From contig JAKQEZ010000241.1 in NCBI GenBank assembly GCA_029558435.1, positions 1 to 12,623 on the forward strand: 12,623 nt of DNA, written 5' to 3'. Position numbers and translations under genes: made by a program. This document shows positions 211 to 6,010 of this stretch, in pieces. Source of the DNA: Bacteroidota bacterium. Lineage in GTDB: Bacteria > Bacteroidota > Bacteroidia > Flavobacteriales > Crocinitomicaceae. The notes under the pieces were generated by a model. That model was not told the DNA's origin, did not search any database, and worked only from the letters and a program-made list of their open reading frames with translations. How positions within the stretch are numbered: the first letter of the stretch is position 1; each line of letters starts with the position of its first letter.

Positions 211-855
211 CTAAAAACTTACCCCATCAATTACATACCTGTATCGGGCTTCCTTATTCACCACTTTATCCCAGGCTTCATTCAACTGATTGGCTGAAAT
301 GATTTCTATCTGTGGATAAATCTTGTTTAAAGCACAATAGTCCATCACTTCCTGTGTTTCGGGGATTCCGCCAATGGTTGAACTATTGAAATTAACCCGG
401 TTGTTCATCATCAATGAATTATTCAGTTCCAAAGCCCCGTTAATGGGTTGACCTACCTGAGTGAAATATCCATACGGTCTTACACAGGAAACATAATTGG
501 CTAAATCATACGCATAGGGTATAGTAGAAATCATGTAATCCAGTTTTCCGTACCAGGGCTTCAAGTCTTCAATTTTGTTCACTACAATTACTTCCTTTGC
601 GCCAAAAGCTTTGATATCATTCACTTTTGATGGAGATGTAGTAAATGCGTAAACTTCTGCACCTTTTGCAATGGCTAATTTTATAGCGATGTGTCCCAAA
701 CCTCCAATTCCGGCAACACCTACTTTATCTCCTCTTTTCAAATTAGCTTTCATCAGAGGTGAATAGGTGGTGATGCCTGCACACAATAATGGTGCTGCGT
801 ATTTAAGGTCAATGTTTTCAGGGATTTTAATGGCAAAATGTTCAGTTGGCGACAC
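211..855 (-). pseudogene. Zinc-type alcohol dehydrogenase, 5'-truncated remnant
   Basis: This is the C-terminal two thirds of a medium-chain zinc-dependent, probably NADP-linked alcohol dehydrogenase of the YahK/cinnamyl-alcohol type. Visible are LLCAGITTYSPL (residues 23-34, with a family zinc-ligand cysteine), the Rossmann glycine motif GIGGLGHIAIKLA (49-61) and the C-terminal return to the catalytic fold ending YRYVIDGVSF. The usual protein is about 350 residues, so about 135 N-terminal residues are missing. These would form the GroES-like catalytic domain with most zinc ligands. The apparent GTG start at 855 lies in or beyond the junction with an AraC gene end and is not a natural start. 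Loss of the catalytic domain and promoter region argues that it is inactive. An assembly chimera is the alternative explanation. Confidence 0.85.
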
Positions 856-955
856 AGCCTTTAATTTAGGCTTTGCTTCTCAGCAGGCATTTAGTCGGTT
901 TTTCAAATCACAAACCAACCAAACACCTTTGGAGTATATTAAGCAGAAGAATTGA
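847..955 (+). pseudogene. AraC-family regulator, C-terminal remnant
   Basis: The last 36 codons of an AraC/XylS transcription factor are preserved, ending at TGA 953-955. The residues from VGDTAFNLGFAS to SRFFKSQTNQTPLEYI match the second helix-turn-helix of the family, whose usual form is IADIAFELGFSDQSHFSRxFKxxTGxTPxEYR. The reading frame upstream is antisense to the dehydrogenase remnant, so the rest of the regulator (about 250 residues) is absent. AraC regulators are often divergent from the oxidoreductase gene they control, which fits the orientation here. This fragment has no start of its own and is almost certainly not expressed as a functional protein. Confidence 0.8.
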
Positions 956-1249
956 GTGATATGATGTATAGTTTATAGTCGCTGTTGAATAGTCTTTGAT
1001 TGTCTATTTGGTGCTGATGGCAAGAAATGGCTCTTTTGGTTTTTTGCAGCGTTGGTTTTGTGTGTCGGAAAAACCAAATGTGCCATTTACGAACTAATTT
1101 ATTATTGTTTTTTAGTGTTCGTGATTCGCTTCGCTTAATTGAGCGTGGGCAATAAAATTTCCTTGTGCGGTGGATTTCTTATTTTTTTTGTGTCGGGTTG
1201 ATGTCTGGTCAAGTGTCGAAGTGTTGGTTCGGGCGGTCGTCCTGCCATT
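956..1249. other. Gene-free stretch between the AraC remnant and the first cassette element
   Basis: No convincing gene is present. The stretch holds the 64-nt hairpin described separately, then a weaker inverted repeat (ACGAACTAA at 1089-1097 with TTAGTGTTCGT at 1112-1122), then about 130 bp that is richer in G and C than its surroundings. A minus-strand frame of 61 codons is open from 1297 to 1112. It runs through the stem of the neighbouring repeat element and is rich in Thr, Asn, Lys and His with no recognisable fold, so I do not call it a gene. The stretch may be a decayed cassette or part of a dispersed intergenic repeat. Confidence 0.5.
1025..1088. repeat. 64-nt structured hairpin, copy H1
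   Basis: Outer stem AAATGGC/GCCATTT, a 3x3 internal loop (TCT opposite TGT), inner stem TTTGGTTTTT/AAAAACCAAA, and a 24-nt loop containing AGCGTTGGTTTTGTG. The two arms agree at 18 of 20 positions. A second hairpin at 5492-5555 has the same total length, the same TCT/TGT internal loop next to a GC pair, and a loop with AGCGTGGATTTGTG, but quite different stem bases. There is no T-run directly after it in either direction, so it is not an obvious intrinsic terminator. Confidence 0.65.
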
Positions 1250-1385
1250 GCCACTAACGGTTTTCGGCTTGGCGTTCGGGCGGGTTTCGAAGTTCAAAGT
1301 TTCAATTTATTTCTAAAGTTTAATAGTGGCACAGAGCTCTAAGTTTTCACGTCAGCCCGCCTGACGCAAAACCCGTGTTAGTGGC
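1250..1385 (-). repeat. TAAC...GTTA inverted-repeat element 1 (attC-like)
   Basis: The element runs from TAAC at 1255 to GTTA ending at 1380, 126 bp, with an outer 9-bp perfect stem GCCACTAAC/GTTAGTGGC. Inside are imperfect arms (about 1265-1284 with 1356-1375), separated from TAAC by GGTTTT on the left but only one base from GTTA on the right. The left arm TAACGGTTTTCGGCTTGGCG matches that of element 4 at 19 of 20 positions. A small perfect hairpin CGTCAG/CTGACG (1350-1366) sits in the right arm. In the direction of the neighbouring gene the element begins 7 nt after that gene's stop codon. It is the last element of the array in gene direction. Confidence 0.7.
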
Positions 1386-1387
1386 AG

Positions 1388-2560
1388 TTATTTAATTTCA
1401 ATGTTGTATTTATCAATTATATTGTAATTTTTGTCTTTTATTACTATTGTATAAAATCCTTTTATTAGAAAGAGTTCATTAACTTTTTTATTGTCGGTAA
1501 TTTCAATAATATCTGCCGGTATTCCATCATTTTCAAATTCATTGTTTCTATAAGCCAAAATAATCAAAGATTCAATGTTTTCAATTTTAGATCGAGGTAT
1601 TGTGTATCTTTCTTTTCCATTCAACAGCCAGTCAGGTCGGTTATTAATGTATTCTGTTTGAGGATGTATAACCACTATATCCGTTTGTTTAATTTCACTT
1701 TTGCCATTAAATACTTGTCCGTTTTCATCTATCAATACAATAGGTTCTTTTGCGTTGTTAAGTTTTATGAACAGATGATTGTTTTCCTTATTTGATCTTT
1801 CCATAAACATAGTTTGGTCTATAGTCAAAGGGTCTATTTTCATATTATCTTTTAATCTGCCAGCCATTGCTTTTCCCCAAGCAGGATAATTATTTTCAAA
1901 AGCATGAGCATAGCCACAATGAATAAGTGCTTTGCTTTTAGGATGATTTTCTATAAATTTTTGGATATTTTCAGCTTGTTCGATTTCTCTTTCCTTACCA
2001 TTTTTACCTTCTGAAGCTTCATAACTAAAAAGGGTGAAACCAATTTTTAAAGCTTCTGAAAATAAATTGCCGAATTCAGGTTCTTTCGTATAATATCCAC
2101 TTTCCATCACAGGAAATTTTCTTTCATTGATTGTCGAGTCAAACAATGCTTCAAGTCCAAGATAACGATAACCATTGTCGTACAATTCTTTTAAAAGAGA
2201 TTTAGTAAAAGTGCGATGTTTTGAAATATGGTGAGCTTCGTTAATGATAATAATTTGTGCGTGTTTAGATTGCTTTATTATGTAATCTTTTGCATTGACT
2301 TTGCTACTATTTGCAAAATATAAGCTATCTTCTTCAGTTGTTTTTGGTTTTCTTACACCATTCTTATCCCAAATCTGAAGAACTTCTTGATAGTATCCAC
2401 TAAATGATAATTCTGTTGCCCCCTTTTGGTATTTCCAAGCAACTGTATCTTTGTCAATTTGAGATAAAATATCTTTAGAAAACTGATAAGTCTCTGGCTT
2501 TAATTGTCCAAATGCAATTGTTATGCTTAGTGATAAAATAATGGTAAAAAGTTTATTCAT
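1388..2560 (-). CDS. Exported EreA/ChaN-like (TIKI superfamily) protein
   Basis: This 390-residue protein starts with a signal peptide (MNKLFTIILSLSITIAFG, 1-18). The middle resembles the erythromycin esterase/ChaN/TraB fold family: a strand ending in INEAHH (106-111) with H115 shortly after, GYRYLGLEAL (130-139) with a conserved Glu at 137, YE at 180-181, an R/Q-bearing helix (191-199), and IHCGYAHA (213-220) ending in a His. These Glu and His positions match the metal or catalytic sites of that superfamily. The family assignment comes from motif spacing, not from an alignment. Members include macrolide esterases, haem-binding lipoproteins and Wnt-cleaving proteases, so the substrate cannot be named. 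The C-terminal third (about 250-390) is not recognised. The gene is flanked by TAAC...GTTA elements and looks like cassette cargo. Confidence 0.7.
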   Translation of the reverse strand: MNKLFTIILSLSITIAFGQLKPETYQFSKDILSQIDKDTVAWKYQKGATELSFSGYYQEVLQIWDKNGVRKPKTTEEDSLYFANSSKVNAKDYIIKQSKHAQIIIINEAHHISKHRTFTKSLLKELYDNGYRYLGLEALFDSTINERKFPVMESGYYTKEPEFGNLFSEALKIGFTLFSYEASEGKNGKEREIEQAENIQKFIENHPKSKALIHCGYAHAFENNYPAWGKAMAGRLKDNMKIDPLTIDQTMFMERSNKENNHLFIKLNNAKEPIVLIDENGQVFNGKSEIKQTDIVVIHPQTEYINNRPDWLLNGKERYTIPRSKIENIESLIILAYRNNEFENDGIPADIIEITDNKKVNELFLIKGFYTIVIKDKNYNIIDKYNIEIK

Positions 2561-2577
2561 ACGTTTGGTTTTGTAAT

Positions 2578-2714
2578 TGCCTATAACGTTATCAGGGCCT
2601 GCGCAGAAAGCATGAACACAATGAAACGTTAGTTAGCATATTGAATGTAAAAATAACAAAAAAACTAAAAGGACGAAGATTTGATGGCTTTTGCGCTTGC
2701 CCTGTGTTATGCAC
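2578..2714 (-). repeat. TAAC...GTTA inverted-repeat element 2 (attC-like)
   Basis: TAAC at 2584 to GTTA ending at 2709 is again exactly 126 bp. The arms 2593-2613 and 2684-2704 agree at 16 of 21 positions (CAGGGC and GCGCA cores) and share no stem sequence with elements 1 and 4. The spacer asymmetry is the same: five bases (GTTAT) after TAAC on the left, one base before GTTA on the right. The flanks beyond TAAC and GTTA pair poorly with each other. Instead TGCCTATAAC pairs with the far end of the gene on the left, and GTTATGCAC pairs with the far end of the gene on the right. The roughly 70-nt centre is A-rich. Confidence 0.7.
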
Positions 2715-2739
2715 TGGCGGATTTCATTTGTGTAATTAT

Positions 2740-4407
2740 TTAGTTCTTTACCACCTTTTTAACGATATTAAATTTATTTGATTTTACGTTCAAAATATAA
2801 ATCCCATTTAGAAAGTTTTGCATATCAACATTAAATAGCTCTGTATTTTGTATTGCTGTTTTATAAACAATTTTTCCCGAAGCGCTGGAAATACAAAGTT
2901 CTATATTTTCTTTTGGCATTGATACCGTAAAAACTCCATTATTAGGATTGGGGAATATATCAACAGTATGTTCAAGTTTATTTTCTAAAATTACCAATGC
3001 AGGATTTTCCACTAATTTCAAAAGAATCATATTGTTTAAATACCCATCACTAAATCCAAGACTGTCTGTTCCGATGTAAAAAGACCCTCCTTGATTTCCT
3101 GCTGTACTGTATGTAAAAACTGAGTTTCCATGTGCAACAATATCATATCCAAAATCGTTAGAACTCCCACCAATACCCATAGAAGCAATCAAATTGCCGT
3201 TTTCATCATATCTTTCGAGTAATAAATCGGTACTCCTACCTGTGACTGCATTTCCTTGTTGATTGACAATCGTTCCCCAATATTCGTTAAGGAGATAAAC
3301 GGAAGATTCGGTGTCAATACTTAAATCAACAATATGTATGCTCCCGTCTGTTGTGTTGTGCAGTGTTTTTGCCCACAAATAGTTGCCACTTGCACCAAAA
3401 CAAGCTAAAAAAGAGCTCCTAAAGCCAATATTTCCTTGTTTAGCAAGAGAGGAGATTCCATCAGAAAACTCTAACAACTGATTTGTAAAATATCCTCCAA
3501 CGATAATGTTGCCGTTTTCAAATCATTCAATAGCAGTTATGGTACTTGACCCGTATGCATTGTATATTGTAGGATTTGAACTATACACATATCGTACCCA
3601 TTCACATGTTCCGCTAGAAGTATATTTAGCAAGATAGCTCACGCTAAAACACGGAATAGGAAGTATGATTTGATACGATCCAAAATAGGCAGTGTCAGCA
3701 CTACCGTTGGAATGCAATATTCCGGCAGCATAAATATTATTGTTATTGTCGGCTGTAACTACTGTTCCTACATCCGTTTTACCAGATCCGGAGACACCAC
3801 CTGTATTATACCACATTTCGTTTCCGTTTTCATCATACTTTGTAATAAACACGTCATCATTCTCATTTTTTCCTGTAATAAGTATATTATTTTGCTCATC
3901 AACGGCGAGTCCTTTATCTCCTAATCTGTTTGTACCTGCTACGGATGTTCTCCACAAACGTGTCCCCGAAGAATCTAATTTAATCAGCTCAACATTGTTT
4001 GTCTGAATGACAATCGTATCATCATACATCAAAAAACTGCCTTCCCAAGCACTATAACCGATTAAAACATTGTCACCACTATCTAAAGAAATCATTAATT
4101 TAAGACCAGATAAACTTCCTCCTGCGTCTGCACCCATTATTTCAGCCACTTTTTTTAGCCAAATCAAAGAAAGGTTATTGTCAAATTTTGCCAGATATAT
4201 TCCACCTCCTGTAATAACAGAATTCTGTATTTCAAAAGTGTTATTGTATAACCCCGCTGTATAGATATTGCCATTATTGTCCGCTACCATATTCCGTTTG
4301 CCGTATATAGCATCACTGCCTCCTATGGTGTATTCATGCAACAAATAATCCTGTGCGAAGCAAAAAGTAGCGGAAAATAAAATTGATATAATGATTAATT
4401 TTTTCAT
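2740..4407 (-). pseudogene. T9SS-exported beta-propeller protein interrupted by an in-frame TGA
   Basis: One reading frame of 555 residue positions is broken only by a TGA at codon 295 (3523-3525). The frame is unchanged on both sides, reading TAIE-stop-FENGNIIVGGYF, so this is a point nonsense change (or sequencing error), not a frameshift. I start it at ATG 4407 because that gives a clean signal peptide, MKKLIIISILFSATFCFA. An upstream in-frame ATG at 4455 would add 16 non-signal residues and overlap a promoter-like box. The body carries repeats such as DNNGNIYTAG, DEQNNILITG and ITKYDENGNEMW, typical of SBBP-type beta-propeller blades. The end (FPNPNNGVF... GKIVYKT... LNGIYILNV... KKVVKN) is a type A type IX secretion sorting domain. 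If intact it would be a surface or secreted protein. Truncated at codon 295 it would lack the sorting domain. A TTG at 3477 is an unlikely restart because it has no signal peptide. Confidence 0.8.
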
Positions 4408-4452
4408 ATCATTAACAATTTTGATTATGAAAGTAATACTATCACAAAATAA

Positions 4453-4460
4453 CAAATTTA
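4453..4460 (-). promoter_or_regulatory. Possible promoter -7 box for the propeller gene
   Basis: On the minus strand this reads TAAATTTG, a full match to the Bacteroidota -7 consensus TAnnTTTG, about 46 nt before the chosen ATG at 4407. The -33 box (TTG or TTTG) is not clear upstream. The box lies inside the cassette, after element 3, which would give the gene its own promoter. In AT-rich DNA such an octamer can occur by chance. Confidence 0.35.
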
Positions 4461-4549
4461 TTTTGAAATGGTAGAAATTTTGAAAAAATGTCGAAAATTA
4501 GAGTTGTCAAGCTAGTGTTGTTTTATAGTAGTACGCTCATTCACCGCTT

Positions 4550-4606
4550 GTGCATAACGGTTTGGCTAAACTGCGTTTTAATGCAGTTTAGGTTTTGTTA
4601 GCAATA
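4550..4606 (-). repeat. TAAC...GTTA inverted-repeat element 3, short form
   Basis: TAAC at 4555 to GTTA ending at 4600 is 46 bp. It has a perfect 9-bp stem CTAAACTGC/GCAGTTTAG (4566-4574 and 4583-4591) and an 8-nt loop. The spacers are GGTTTGG on the left and GTTTT on the right. It keeps the TAACGGTTT start of elements 1 and 4 but lacks their long centre. It begins 8 nt after the stop codon of the gene at 4609-5220, read in that gene's direction. Its outer flanks pair with neighbouring elements across the genes: GTGCATAAC is perfectly complementary to GTTATGCAC of element 2. Confidence 0.7.
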
Positions 4607-4608
4607 GT

Positions 4609-5220
4609 TTAGAATTGCTTTTTTATTTTCCAACCTTTGTATAAACCACCAAGGTAGTCGTCACCCTTACTGCTATTACTTTCAGGTTTTATCCAGTAAT
4701 ATGCATCTGAATTATAGTCGATTTCAAAGACAATGTGTTTGTCAAGTTTTCCCCCTGAGTATCCGGAACTACTTACAGTCATAGTTACAACTAATGCATC
4801 TCCCTTTCTATATTTATCGGTATAATAAAATACATAATTTTTTTCTGTTACACTCGGTCCGTTAAACAAATCATCAGATCTTATATTTTCTTCTTCAAAT
4901 CCACCTGTAGGTTTACCAAATAATAATTTAGCATCTTCATACATTGAACTTGCTTTCGATTCGGATGGGTAAAAGGAGAGTATTCTAGTCAGTGTATTTT
5001 CGTCACATTGATTATACAAACAACCAAATTCTAATTTTATTTTGTTCTGGCCTATCTGAATGTAAATATTGTTGCCGTCAAAAGTCACTTCTTTATCCCA
5101 GAAATGGTCTTTTATTTCTTGTTTGGTATAGGCTTTTCTAAATGTTAGTCCATAGAAATTTTGACTAAACAGAGATGTAGACAATACTAGTGTAACTACT
5201 GATATTAAAAGTGTTTTCAT
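4609..5220 (-). CDS. Secreted protein of unknown function
   Basis: The 203-residue protein begins with a signal peptide (MKTLLISVVTLVLSTSLFS, cleaved near residue 19-20). The rest is probably mostly beta structure: short alternating strands such as NNIYIQIG and KIKLEFG, then KNYVFYYTDKYRKGDALVVTMTV. Two cysteines at 67 and 72 (GCLYNQC) could form a disulphide. I do not recognise a family. The C-terminus GLYKGWKIKKQF has no type IX sorting domain and there is no lipobox, so it is probably periplasmic or released by another route. The start codon ATG at 5220 follows an A/T-rich leader without a Shine-Dalgarno sequence, as is usual in Bacteroidota. The gene fills the space between elements 3 and 4 almost completely, with 8 nt after its stop and 16 nt before its start, a cassette-like packing. 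Confidence 0.8.
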   Translation of the reverse strand: MKTLLISVVTLVLSTSLFSQNFYGLTFRKAYTKQEIKDHFWDKEVTFDGNNIYIQIGQNKIKLEFGCLYNQCDENTLTRILSFYPSESKASSMYEDAKLLFGKPTGGFEEENIRSDDLFNGPSVTEKNYVFYYTDKYRKGDALVVTMTVSSSGYSGGKLDKHIVFEIDYNSDAYYWIKPESNSSKGDDYLGGLYKGWKIKKQF

Positions 5221-5230
5221 ATTTTTTGAT

Positions 5231-5367
5231 TATTGATAACGGTTCTCGGCTTGGCGATGTGGCGGATTTTTAGCACTAAACTCCAATCGAAGAACTACTT
5301 TTCAAATATAGTAAAAACTTTCAAACGAAGCACTTAACCGCCATATTGCCAAACCGATGTTACAGGC
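5231..5367 (-). repeat. TAAC...GTTA inverted-repeat element 4 (attC-like)
   Basis: TAAC at 5237 to GTTA ending at 5362 is 126 bp. The arms 5246-5265 and 5338-5357 match at 17 of 20 positions, with two of the three mismatches being G-T wobbles. Five bases (GGTTC) follow TAAC and one base precedes GTTA, as in element 2. It is the most regular copy and the first element of the array in gene direction. Its outer flank TATTGATAAC pairs with GTTAGCAATA of element 3 at the other end of the intervening gene (9 of 10). Its right flank GTTACAGGC has no visible partner in the window. Confidence 0.75.
5303..5310 (-). promoter_or_regulatory. Promoter-like box inside element 4
   Basis: The minus strand reads TATATTTG, a full match to the TAnnTTTG -7 consensus. 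It lies in the unpaired centre of element 4, about 83 nt upstream of the ATG at 5220. A TTTG occurs 11 nt further upstream, closer than the usual spacing of about 19-21 nt, so the -33 part is not convincing. If real, the element would carry the promoter of the gene that follows it. Confidence 0.3.
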
Positions 5368-5491
5368 TGGCGTTCTGTCTTTCGTGTTGTAAAGTTCTTG
5401 TCTGTATTGAGTTTTGCTGTTGTGTCGGCTGTGAGATAGGAGTTTTAAAATTTTTAGAAAGGGAAGGAAAAATAATTTTTTAGGATAGGTA
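5368..5491. other. Gene-free spacer between element 4 and hairpin H2
   Basis: I see no gene, no clear inverted repeat and no partner for the GTTACAGGC end of element 4 here. The left half is T/G-rich on the plus strand, and the right half is A-rich around 5440-5480. It may be the leader side of the array or the remains of a cassette. Confidence 0.4.
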
Positions 5492-5555
5492 GTGTAAGCT
5501 CTTCTCGCATTTTGGCTTTAGCGTGGATTTGTGCGAATGCGAGATGTGCTTACAC
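5492..5555. repeat. 64-nt structured hairpin, copy H2
   Basis: Outer stem GTGTAAGC/GCTTACAC (8 bp), a 3x3 internal loop TCT opposite TGT, inner stem TCTCGCATT/AATGCGAGA (9 bp) and a 24-nt loop containing AGCGTGGATTTGTG. Length, internal loop and loop motif match H1, while the stem bases differ. It starts 8 nt after the stop codon of the DUF2141 gene in that gene's direction, so it may end or stabilise the efflux operon mRNA. However, no T-run follows immediately. Confidence 0.65.
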
Positions 5556-5563
5556 GGTGAGTT

Positions 5564-6010
5564 TTACATATAAATCACTTTTACTTTAATGGTCTTATTT
5601 TGGTTTAATTCAAAACTTGCTTTTTTAAAATTAGGTCGGTTGGTTAATCCGATTGAAGAATAGTTTGAAAATCCAATTCCTTCTTTTGGCAAAATTAAAC
5701 CTTTGTCAATCTTTCCATTGCTATTTTCATCGTGCAAAATGTTTACCGCATAATTACCTTTAGGTAAGTTCGGGAATGTATATTGAGCTGTGCCATTTGT
5801 AATGGTTACTTTTTCCATTTTGAAGTAATTTTTATACTGTTCATCAGGAATGGAGTCGTCTTTGTTATACAATGCTATTTGAACCGTTCCTTTTGAATTT
5901 CTCAAATTTTCAACTTTTACCGTTAAGCTGTTTTGTTCATTAAAATTAGCTTTAAACGAACTCAATAACAGTGCTAAAGGCGTAATAACAAAAACGATTA
6001 ATTGCTTCAT
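5564..6010 (-). CDS. DUF2141 domain protein, last gene of the efflux operon
   Basis: This 148-residue protein has a signal peptide or membrane anchor at residues 1-20 (MKQLIVFVITPLALLLSSFK). A DUF2141 domain follows: LTVKVENLRNSKGTVQIALY (29-48), TAQYTFPNLPKGNYAVNILHD (74-94) and the conserved HDENSNGKID (93-102), then GIGFSN. The domain is predicted to be an extracytoplasmic beta sandwich. Its biochemical role is unknown. Its ATG overlaps the stop codon of the RND pump gene as ATGA (6007-6010), so translation is probably coupled. That suggests a role with the pump or in the same envelope response, but this is inference. The 64-nt hairpin H2 follows the stop codon after 8 nt. Confidence 0.85.
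   Translation of the reverse strand: MKQLIVFVITPLALLLSSFKANFNEQNSLTVKVENLRNSKGTVQIALYNKDDSIPDEQYKNYFKMEKVTITNGTAQYTFPNLPKGNYAVNILHDENSNGKIDKGLILPKEGIGFSNYSSIGLTNRPNFKKASFELNQNKTIKVKVIYM

Follow-up and report, generated by a model that had tools for sequence, protein, structure and literature searches.

Three genes of a Crocinitomicaceae contig as probable cassettes of an integron-type system in Bacteroidota

INTRODUCTION

Sedentary chromosomal integrons, or super-integrons, such as that of Vibrio cholerae, are built of cassettes lying head to tail with one hairpin site (attC) per unit, in arrays that can be very long, that start with a tyrosine recombinase and an attI site, and that include some toxin-antitoxin-like cassettes. 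The accessible portions of PMC11551772 and PMC11023631 put the V. cholerae array at 179 cassettes in 126 kb and that of V. vulnificus at up to 301 cassettes, and give 3% of the genome as an upper figure for integrons elsewhere. Here we compare with such systems a stretch of 12,623 bp from a Crocinitomicaceae bacterium (contig JAKQEZ010000241.1, assembly GCA_029558435.1), called the window throughout, in which three genes alternate with four hairpin-forming elements, E1 to E4. Comparative sequence evidence leads us to regard these genes, with a probability of roughly 90%, as three cassettes of a Bacteroidota integron-type system.

Other relevant systems are the clusters of attC sites that lack an integrase (CALINs) and the XerA or "integron-like" simple tyrosine recombinases (profile NF040815). 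In the available part of PMC8138268, the insert of the integron integrase IntI is described as not fully conserved in the "integron-like" subgroup, yet essential for integron function. It is the bottom strand of attC that recombines, according to the part of PMC8946536 at hand. Bacteroidota are named among the integron-bearing phyla in PMC8618304 and PMC9668308, without detail in their accessible text, and PMC6391281, in its accessible text, mentions integrons in Myroides only in general. We found no published description of a system like the one below in a literature search that took in neither preprints nor most subscription papers, and an earlier description is possible.

RESULTS

The array in the window and its units

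A preliminary description of this DNA had proposed four inverted-repeat elements bounding three minus-strand genes, and this holds at the coordinates found here: E1 at 1255-1380, E2 at 2584-2709, E3 at 4555-4600, and E4 at 5237-5362, all reading TAACG...GTTA on the plus strand, three of them 126 nt long and E3 46 nt. The gene direction of the array, and hence of its attC-like elements, is the minus strand; the presumed recombinogenic bottom strand is the plus strand. Read in the gene direction, an element consists of TAAC, about 1 nt, a stem, a centre, the returning stem, about 5 nt, and CGTTR (CGTTA in the window). A unit defined by sequence comprises a GTTR core, a gene, and a hairpin element that closes with the following GTTR core, with units arranged head to tail in one direction. 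Cassette A (4555-5240, minus strand) would run from the GTTA core at 5240, at the preceding element E4, to the end of E3 and carries a gene of 203 amino acids (4609-5220); cassette B (2584-4558, minus strand) carries the gene at 2740-4455 and E2; cassette C (1255-2587, minus strand) carries a gene of 390 amino acids (1388-2560) and E1.

The products of the A and C genes look exported by eye, the latter from its signal-like start, and neither has a Pfam match. The cassette B product is a predicted exported protein with an SBBP repeat and Por_Secre_tail, according to Pfam matches of its two pieces: an in-frame stop at 3523 breaks this gene into 2740-3477 and 3523-4455, so that the layout of three genes stands but the middle one is not the single gene first reported. 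The interruption (3478-3523) may be either decay or a sequencing error. Distances from stop codon to TAAC in the gene direction are 7 nt (stop 1388), 30 nt (stop 2740, previously given as 26), and 8 nt (stop 4609), the first and last as first reported. No recombinase was found among the scanned or read open reading frames (ORFs) of the window, and an integron-like layout without a visible integrase is indeed what these 12.6 kb contain.

Were units to close into circles, complementarity would be expected between the start of a cassette and the bases that follow the AAC core at that cassette's own 3' end, and not between those bases and the start of the next cassette. Of 29 consecutive pairs of elements less than 3 kb apart, 25 had a cassette start that agreed, at 5 or more of 6 bases, with the reverse complement of the cassette's own R'' flank, compared with 4 of 64 for the two flanks of the same element and 5.6% in an all-against-all control. 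An impression gained by eye, that the two flanks of one element pair with each other, was rejected by this count; the match is between the cassette start and its own end. The four failing pairs were at loci L027, L037, and L039 (L and G numbers are our labels for loci and genomes) and at E4-E2 of the window, where the scan had missed E3 lying between. With E3 placed, cassettes A, B, and C score 5, 6, and 4 of 6 (probability 0.0011 with starts and ends drawn randomly from the large array described below). For E4, no convincing start of its own cassette was found within the window, the best candidates reaching 6 of 8 at unrelated places. Elsewhere the alternation can be longer, as at L006, where ten ORFs of at least 80 amino acids and eleven elements alternate, all in one direction. 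Because the start of a cassette recurs in the variable bases at its own 3' element, we take gene plus element as the unit, and a cassette would accordingly be a gene with its site, recombined as one at the GTT core.

An element family with unequal spacers

The preliminary description had remarked on spacers of unequal length and on boxes that are not those of canonical attC, and both features hold for the family at large. A pattern of 19 specified bases taken from E1/E4 yielded 47 loci, which with the window amount to 344 kb; a descriptor with spacers of 5-6 and 1-2 nt found 59 matches there at stem score 10, both strands included. On the same sequence, controls with 5/5 spacing gave 0 matches, 1/1 spacing 2, eight scrambled box pairs 0-3, and swapped boxes 0, from which we conclude that the asymmetric spacing is not due to chance. 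Copies of the search pattern itself make up 20 of the 59 matches; the other 39 are not copies of it. A descriptor of mirror asymmetry gave 54 matches, largely the identical elements read on the opposite strand. The elements contain a 1/5 asymmetric bulge.

A covariance model, R1, was built from 47 training sequences, 45 from the pattern loci and 2 from the window (E1 and E4); these came from a list of 56 elements, to which E1 was added and from which near-duplicates and short elements were removed. It scores these two window elements at 85.3 and 132.1 bits, and it recovers E2 (39.1 bits, E = 8.5e-6) and E3 (27.9 bits, E = 0.0023; plus-strand fold z = -3.08), neither of which was used in its training. 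It also detects an element in 43 of the 47 pattern loci and in the window (exceptions L003, L019, L034, and L038), a success that is partly by construction because many of those loci contributed to the model. In surveys scoring the best 11 to 21 candidates per genome, 123 of the 149 genomes from the family to which Flavobacterium sp. J49 belongs had elements (E ≤ 1e-3), as did 145 of 296 Bacteroidota genomes (E ≤ 1e-4), while none of 150 Pseudomonadota genomes had one. These surveys support the suggestion, made when the window was first described, of a Bacteroidota-specific family of recombination sites, and the proposed search with a covariance model did find arrays with different genes between the elements. 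Five genomes behind oddly labelled loci were also searched: a WOR-3 metagenome-assembled genome (MAG) has 3 elements and a Chlorobium MAG 2, and Acetatifactor, Maricaulis, and a proteobacterial MAG have none. An Rfam search of the window returned chance-level matches only, and no family fits the elements.

With DNA parameters, 47 of 56 elements have the more stable fold on the bottom strand (P = 3e-7); in the large array, folding energies favor that strand in 267 of 338 elements, with 4 equal (P = 3e-39). These P values are too small because the elements are interrelated. By eye, many copies, for example at L006 and other loci, have a TAnnnTTG motif about 4 nt before TAACG on the bottom strand of the element. 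We presume this to resemble the Bacteroidota -7 box; an antisense transcript running through the element is possible.

A tyrosine recombinase at array starts

Matches to TIGR02249, the integron integrase profile, led to recombinases of 347-378 amino acids. In genomes chosen beforehand for having elements, six of these (L107, L117, L118, L119, L121, and L126) and a broken one (L120) stand at array starts. For an unpicked sample we took the recombinases at ranks 32 to 51 (20 in all), each with flanks of up to 10 kb, and 20 lower-scoring controls (33-37% identity, about 300 amino acids, presumably XerC/XerD), the latter in list order omitting the multi-copy matches of G113 and G138, the 427-amino-acid match of G027, and the last match of G022. 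Elements lay within 10 kb in 13 of 20 recombinase loci (39 elements) and in 0 of 20 controls (Fisher P = 1.3e-5), bearing out the earlier suggestion that a tyrosine recombinase should be sought near some arrays. Among the 30 top-ranked loci, for which only 1.5-kb flanks were used, 11 had an element (14 elements). All 53 elements point away from the recombinase, whether the latter is codirected or divergent. Across the 149 family genomes, both components were present in 95, the element only in 28, the recombinase only in 6, and neither in 20 (P = 3e-7; recombinase at E ≤ 1e-40).

No element was found in the 2.9 kb examined around a 578-amino-acid recombinase (L050). A plasmid of Chryseobacterium oryzae (L130; NZ_CP094530.1, 12001-13044) encodes a recombinase that shares 64% identity with the Flavobacterium J49 enzyme. 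Its nearest 12 kb contain no element, and the locus resembles an empty (In0) platform.

At 29 loci with both recombinase and element, we sought the start of the first cassette by matching it to that cassette's own end. The best junction matched at 8 of 8 bases in 17 loci, 7 in 9, 6 in 2, and 5 in 1 (26 of 29 at 7 or 8), compared with at least 7 of 8 in 48 of 812 pairs with swapped ends (5.9%; 6 of them 8 of 8). In 23 of the 29 loci, this start lies 27-249 nt from the recombinase gene. The bases preceding GTT are alike by eye within groups: TATAAACAA; TATAACAA/C; or a palindrome such as AATAAACGCA..TGCGTTTAT. Such junctions have the makings of an attI-type site beside the recombinase, with insertion before GTT.

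Alignment of these recombinases, which come from relatives of the window organism, shows that the catalytic R-K-HxxR-H-Y set is kept, and most end in SP[FL]D like IntI1, which is matched by a Bacteroidota recombinase at 30% identity. In 45 of 48 recombinases (the other 3 were not parsed), 89-90 residues separate the Box I arginine from the Box II histidine, compared with 131 in IntI1; the figure is 90 and 97 in two XerA-like proteins and 96 in those controls, 4 out of 20, in which the script recognized both boxes. Six proteins scored 178-221 bits against TIGR02249, none above the cut-off of 265, with a gap at about positions 180-235, and 197-223 bits against NF040815, one of them above the cut-off of 220. 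A PDB comparison gave XerA at 136 bits and IntI4 at 125 bits. In a tree of 59 rows, IntI formed one clade (100/100) and the Xer controls another; the branching order of IntI, XerA-like, and Bacteroidota recombinases is not resolved by it. Some database entries of the recombinase family have been named automatically as "site-specific tyrosine recombinase/integron integrase."

A very long array

The largest array is on the SSA2 chromosome (CP058707.1, 4.27 Mb; G002, the genome of L009), where 349 elements on one strand span 3,475,207-3,982,503, that is, 507 kb or about 12% of the genome, a figure to be read with the caveat that SSA2 is a MAG. The 580 kb around the array have N runs of one or two bases only (1188) and are without scaffold gaps. 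Eight opposite-strand R1 matches are mirror images of array elements; an earlier scan with a position weight matrix had counted 134 elements, missing those with CAAC/GTTG cores. The start matches the cassette's own end in 295 of 342 cassettes; testing the two flanks of each element against one another gives 27 of 342, and the all-against-all comparison 7.5%.

The core is GTTA in 192 and GTTG in 156 of the 349 elements, and few cassette starts, 29 of 342, show the canonical R box GTTRRRY. Base 11 of the start is A, and the end carries G (198 of 300), A (58), or C (42) there; where the end has G, this would give a G-T wobble on the bottom strand and a C-A mismatch on the top strand. Of 286 intervals, 257 have their longest ORF in the gene direction; 61 more intervals have no ORF of 60 amino acids. 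Gene-strand ORFs of at least 80 amino acids number 435 and fall into 316 families, of which 100 were run against Pfam (the longest without ambiguous residues, one transposase-like excluded); matches among these representatives include Por_Secre_tail (6), glyoxalase (3), HepT-like, KilA-N, MerC, and MarR. One family we take, from its motif and by eye, to be PIN/VapC-like. Within the array (L088-L116), two clusters of cassette intervals have 56 and 25 members by DNA similarity, and repeated 60-mers make up 26% of those in the array.

Resistance plasmids and exchange of units

In blastn searches of window positions 900-5600 against plasmids, E1 or E4 was matched on plasmids of Empedobacter, Riemerella, Myroides, and Runella, in several cases next to resistance genes. 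R1 elements immediately follow lnu(H) and arr on plasmids of Empedobacter brevis (L207 and L208) and stand likewise behind blaMYO-1, blaOXA, and a GNAT gene on p63039 of Myroides odoratimimus (L209), behind blaMYO-1 in Myroides albus (L210), and behind blaOXA and estT in Riemerella (L211). The last also has ere(D) and erm(F) between elements, in the opposite direction.

Empedobacter and Riemerella plasmids have in common a unit of 1226 bp, 99.7% identical and carrying arr and a MarR gene, in which identity begins exactly at GTTAGC and stops exactly at CGTTA while the neighbors differ; the preliminary description had asked for strain-specific gain or loss of such gene-plus-element units, and here one is shared by plasmids in different neighborhoods. 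A 1034-bp match between M. albus and Riemerella (98.9%) ends at CGTT, its left end falling within the preceding element at an IS1182-type insertion of M. albus. The Myroides pair shares 4006 bp (92.2%), starting at AACGTTAGC behind two different elements and continuing through aadS and an IS91 unit. One 622-bp match (87.3%) begins at the AAC end of an element; for the remaining listed plasmid matches, no end could be located at a core. Our tally of exchange is one clean unit with both breakpoints at a core and two comparisons with one breakpoint at a core.

Homologs and surroundings of the window array

Homologs of the 390-amino-acid protein of cassette C number 999, and among the best 120 of these, close ones occur in several Bacteroidota genera; at E ≤ 1e-40, a homolog of the gene is found in 5 of 296 Bacteroidota genomes.

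Hairpins of another family, 64 nt in length, are present at 1025-1088 and 5492-5555, just outside both ends of the array, with a variable 8-bp outer arm, a 4x4 bubble between GCTCTT and ATGTGC sides, an inner stem, and a similar loop. The copy at 1025-1088 has relatives in the SSA2 and SSA6 arrays; of 11 matches checked by eye, 10 have an R1 element at a distance of 30-205 nt. Farther out, the ORF of a zinc-binding alcohol dehydrogenase (211-855) is truncated where an AraC-type C-terminal fragment (767-955, plus strand) starts; the junction at 211-955 looks like a rearrangement or an assembly joint.

DISCUSSION

The arrays described here resemble sedentary chromosomal integrons in their head-to-tail cassettes with one hairpin site per unit, their sometimes very long extent, their start at a tyrosine recombinase with an attI-like junction, and their inclusion of some toxin-antitoxin-like cassettes (HepT-like by Pfam, PIN-like by eye). 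They differ in belonging to another phylum, in having 1/5 spacers with only GTTR conserved, and in a recombinase without the IntI insert. In extent, the 349 elements and approximately 12% of the genome in SSA2 compare with the 179 cassettes in 126 kb (V. cholerae) and the 301 cassettes and 3% elsewhere that are quoted above from partly accessible sources. With several cassettes and no recombinase in view, the window is like a CALIN, except that its sites are not canonical attC; it is probably a small array whose recombinase lies elsewhere in the cell or one left after a rearrangement. The NF040815 scores of the six recombinases recall the XerA or "integron-like" enzymes of PMC8138268, as far as the accessible part of that paper goes, from which they are distinguished by an additional N-terminal part of about 75 residues and by adjoining cassette arrays.

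The mechanism we propose is that a tyrosine recombinase of the Xer/IntI type, without the IntI insert, would recognize the folded bottom strand of the element and cut at the GTT core; cassettes would be excised as circles and inserted at the attI-like site adjoining the recombinase gene. An integron-like way of working is strongly supported by the sequence comparisons. Strict membership in the IntI/attC class fails because the IntI-specific insert is missing and few sites have GTTRRRY: the canonical attC boxes RYYYAAC/GTTRRRY are not present as such, only GTTR being kept.

The closest competing explanation is that these are classical integron cassettes, with IntI and canonical attC, that have merely diverged in Bacteroidota. 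The layout, the AAC/GTT core, the bottom-strand bias, the attI-like junction, the catalytic set, and the 30% identity to IntI1 would all fit, but the scarcity of GTTRRRY (29 of 342 starts), the asymmetric 1/5 spacers, the missing insert (89-90 residues in 45 of 48 recombinases versus 131), TIGR02249 scores below cut-off for all six proteins, and the separate IntI clade, whose relation to the Bacteroidota recombinases the tree does not settle, make this improbable. Still less probable is that the elements are short non-autonomous mobile repeats, of the kind of miniature inverted-repeat transposable elements or repetitive extragenic palindromes, inserting themselves behind genes. Terminal inverted repeats, hairpins, and many copies per genome are what one would expect of such repeats; the flanks of a single element, however, rarely match (4 of 64 and 27 of 342), the flanks that do match embrace gene plus element (25 of 29 and 295 of 342), the unit exchanged between plasmids includes genes, and 349 elements of one array share a single orientation. 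That the hairpins lie behind stop codons might also suggest conserved transcription terminators or small RNAs at gene ends, a reading to which we give almost no credence, as there is no Rfam match and it leaves unexplained the conservation of junction bases, the matching of cassette ends, and exchange at GTT. Both the terminator or RNA reading and that of stand-alone repeats were dropped, being contradicted by the exchange of gene-bearing units.

Several results nevertheless weigh against an integron-type system of cassettes. Recombination is deduced from sequence patterns, and the recombinase lacks an insert that PMC8138268, in its accessible part, deems essential for integron function. The end matching has its failures: the E2-E1 pair of the window reaches only 4 of 6 and the two flanks of E1 agree at 6 of 6, contrary to the rule; 47 of 342 SSA2 cassettes fail; and the plasmid pairs match in 10 of 14, with L207 and L208 coming from one strain. 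The association with the recombinase is incomplete as well, since 7 of the 20 unpicked loci (in L164-L167 the contig ends beside the recombinase) and 19 of the 30 top-ranked loci with 1.5-kb flanks have no element, no such recombinase reaches E ≤ 1e-40 in 28 of the 123 genomes that carry elements, and the converse, a recombinase and no element, is seen in 6 genomes. Finally, none of six loci (L201-L206) with distant homologs (34-54% identity) of the 390-amino-acid gene carries an element. The preliminary description had named two contrary outcomes, elements occurring mainly as isolated copies or a fixed order of the same three genes with the elements absent in relatives, and the material examined displays neither.

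By sequence, arrays related to that of the window are widespread in Bacteroidota, including one very large array and resistance genes on plasmids. We consider it fairly likely that Bacteroidota have an integron class of their own, nearly universal in some families, whose recombinase would have reached single-strand cassette recombination without the IntI insert, separately from IntI or before it, whose arrays would be larger than reported for Vibrio, and which would be an unrecognized carrier of resistance cassettes among plasmids of Myroides, Riemerella, and Empedobacter. If this is true, then one of the main gene-capture systems of a major phylum has escaped notice, plausibly since it has neither of the two markers by which integrons are found, canonical attC and the IntI insert. 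The need for the IntI insert in hairpin recombination would then become testable, and the assembly of some resistance regions on Bacteroidota plasmids would be explained.

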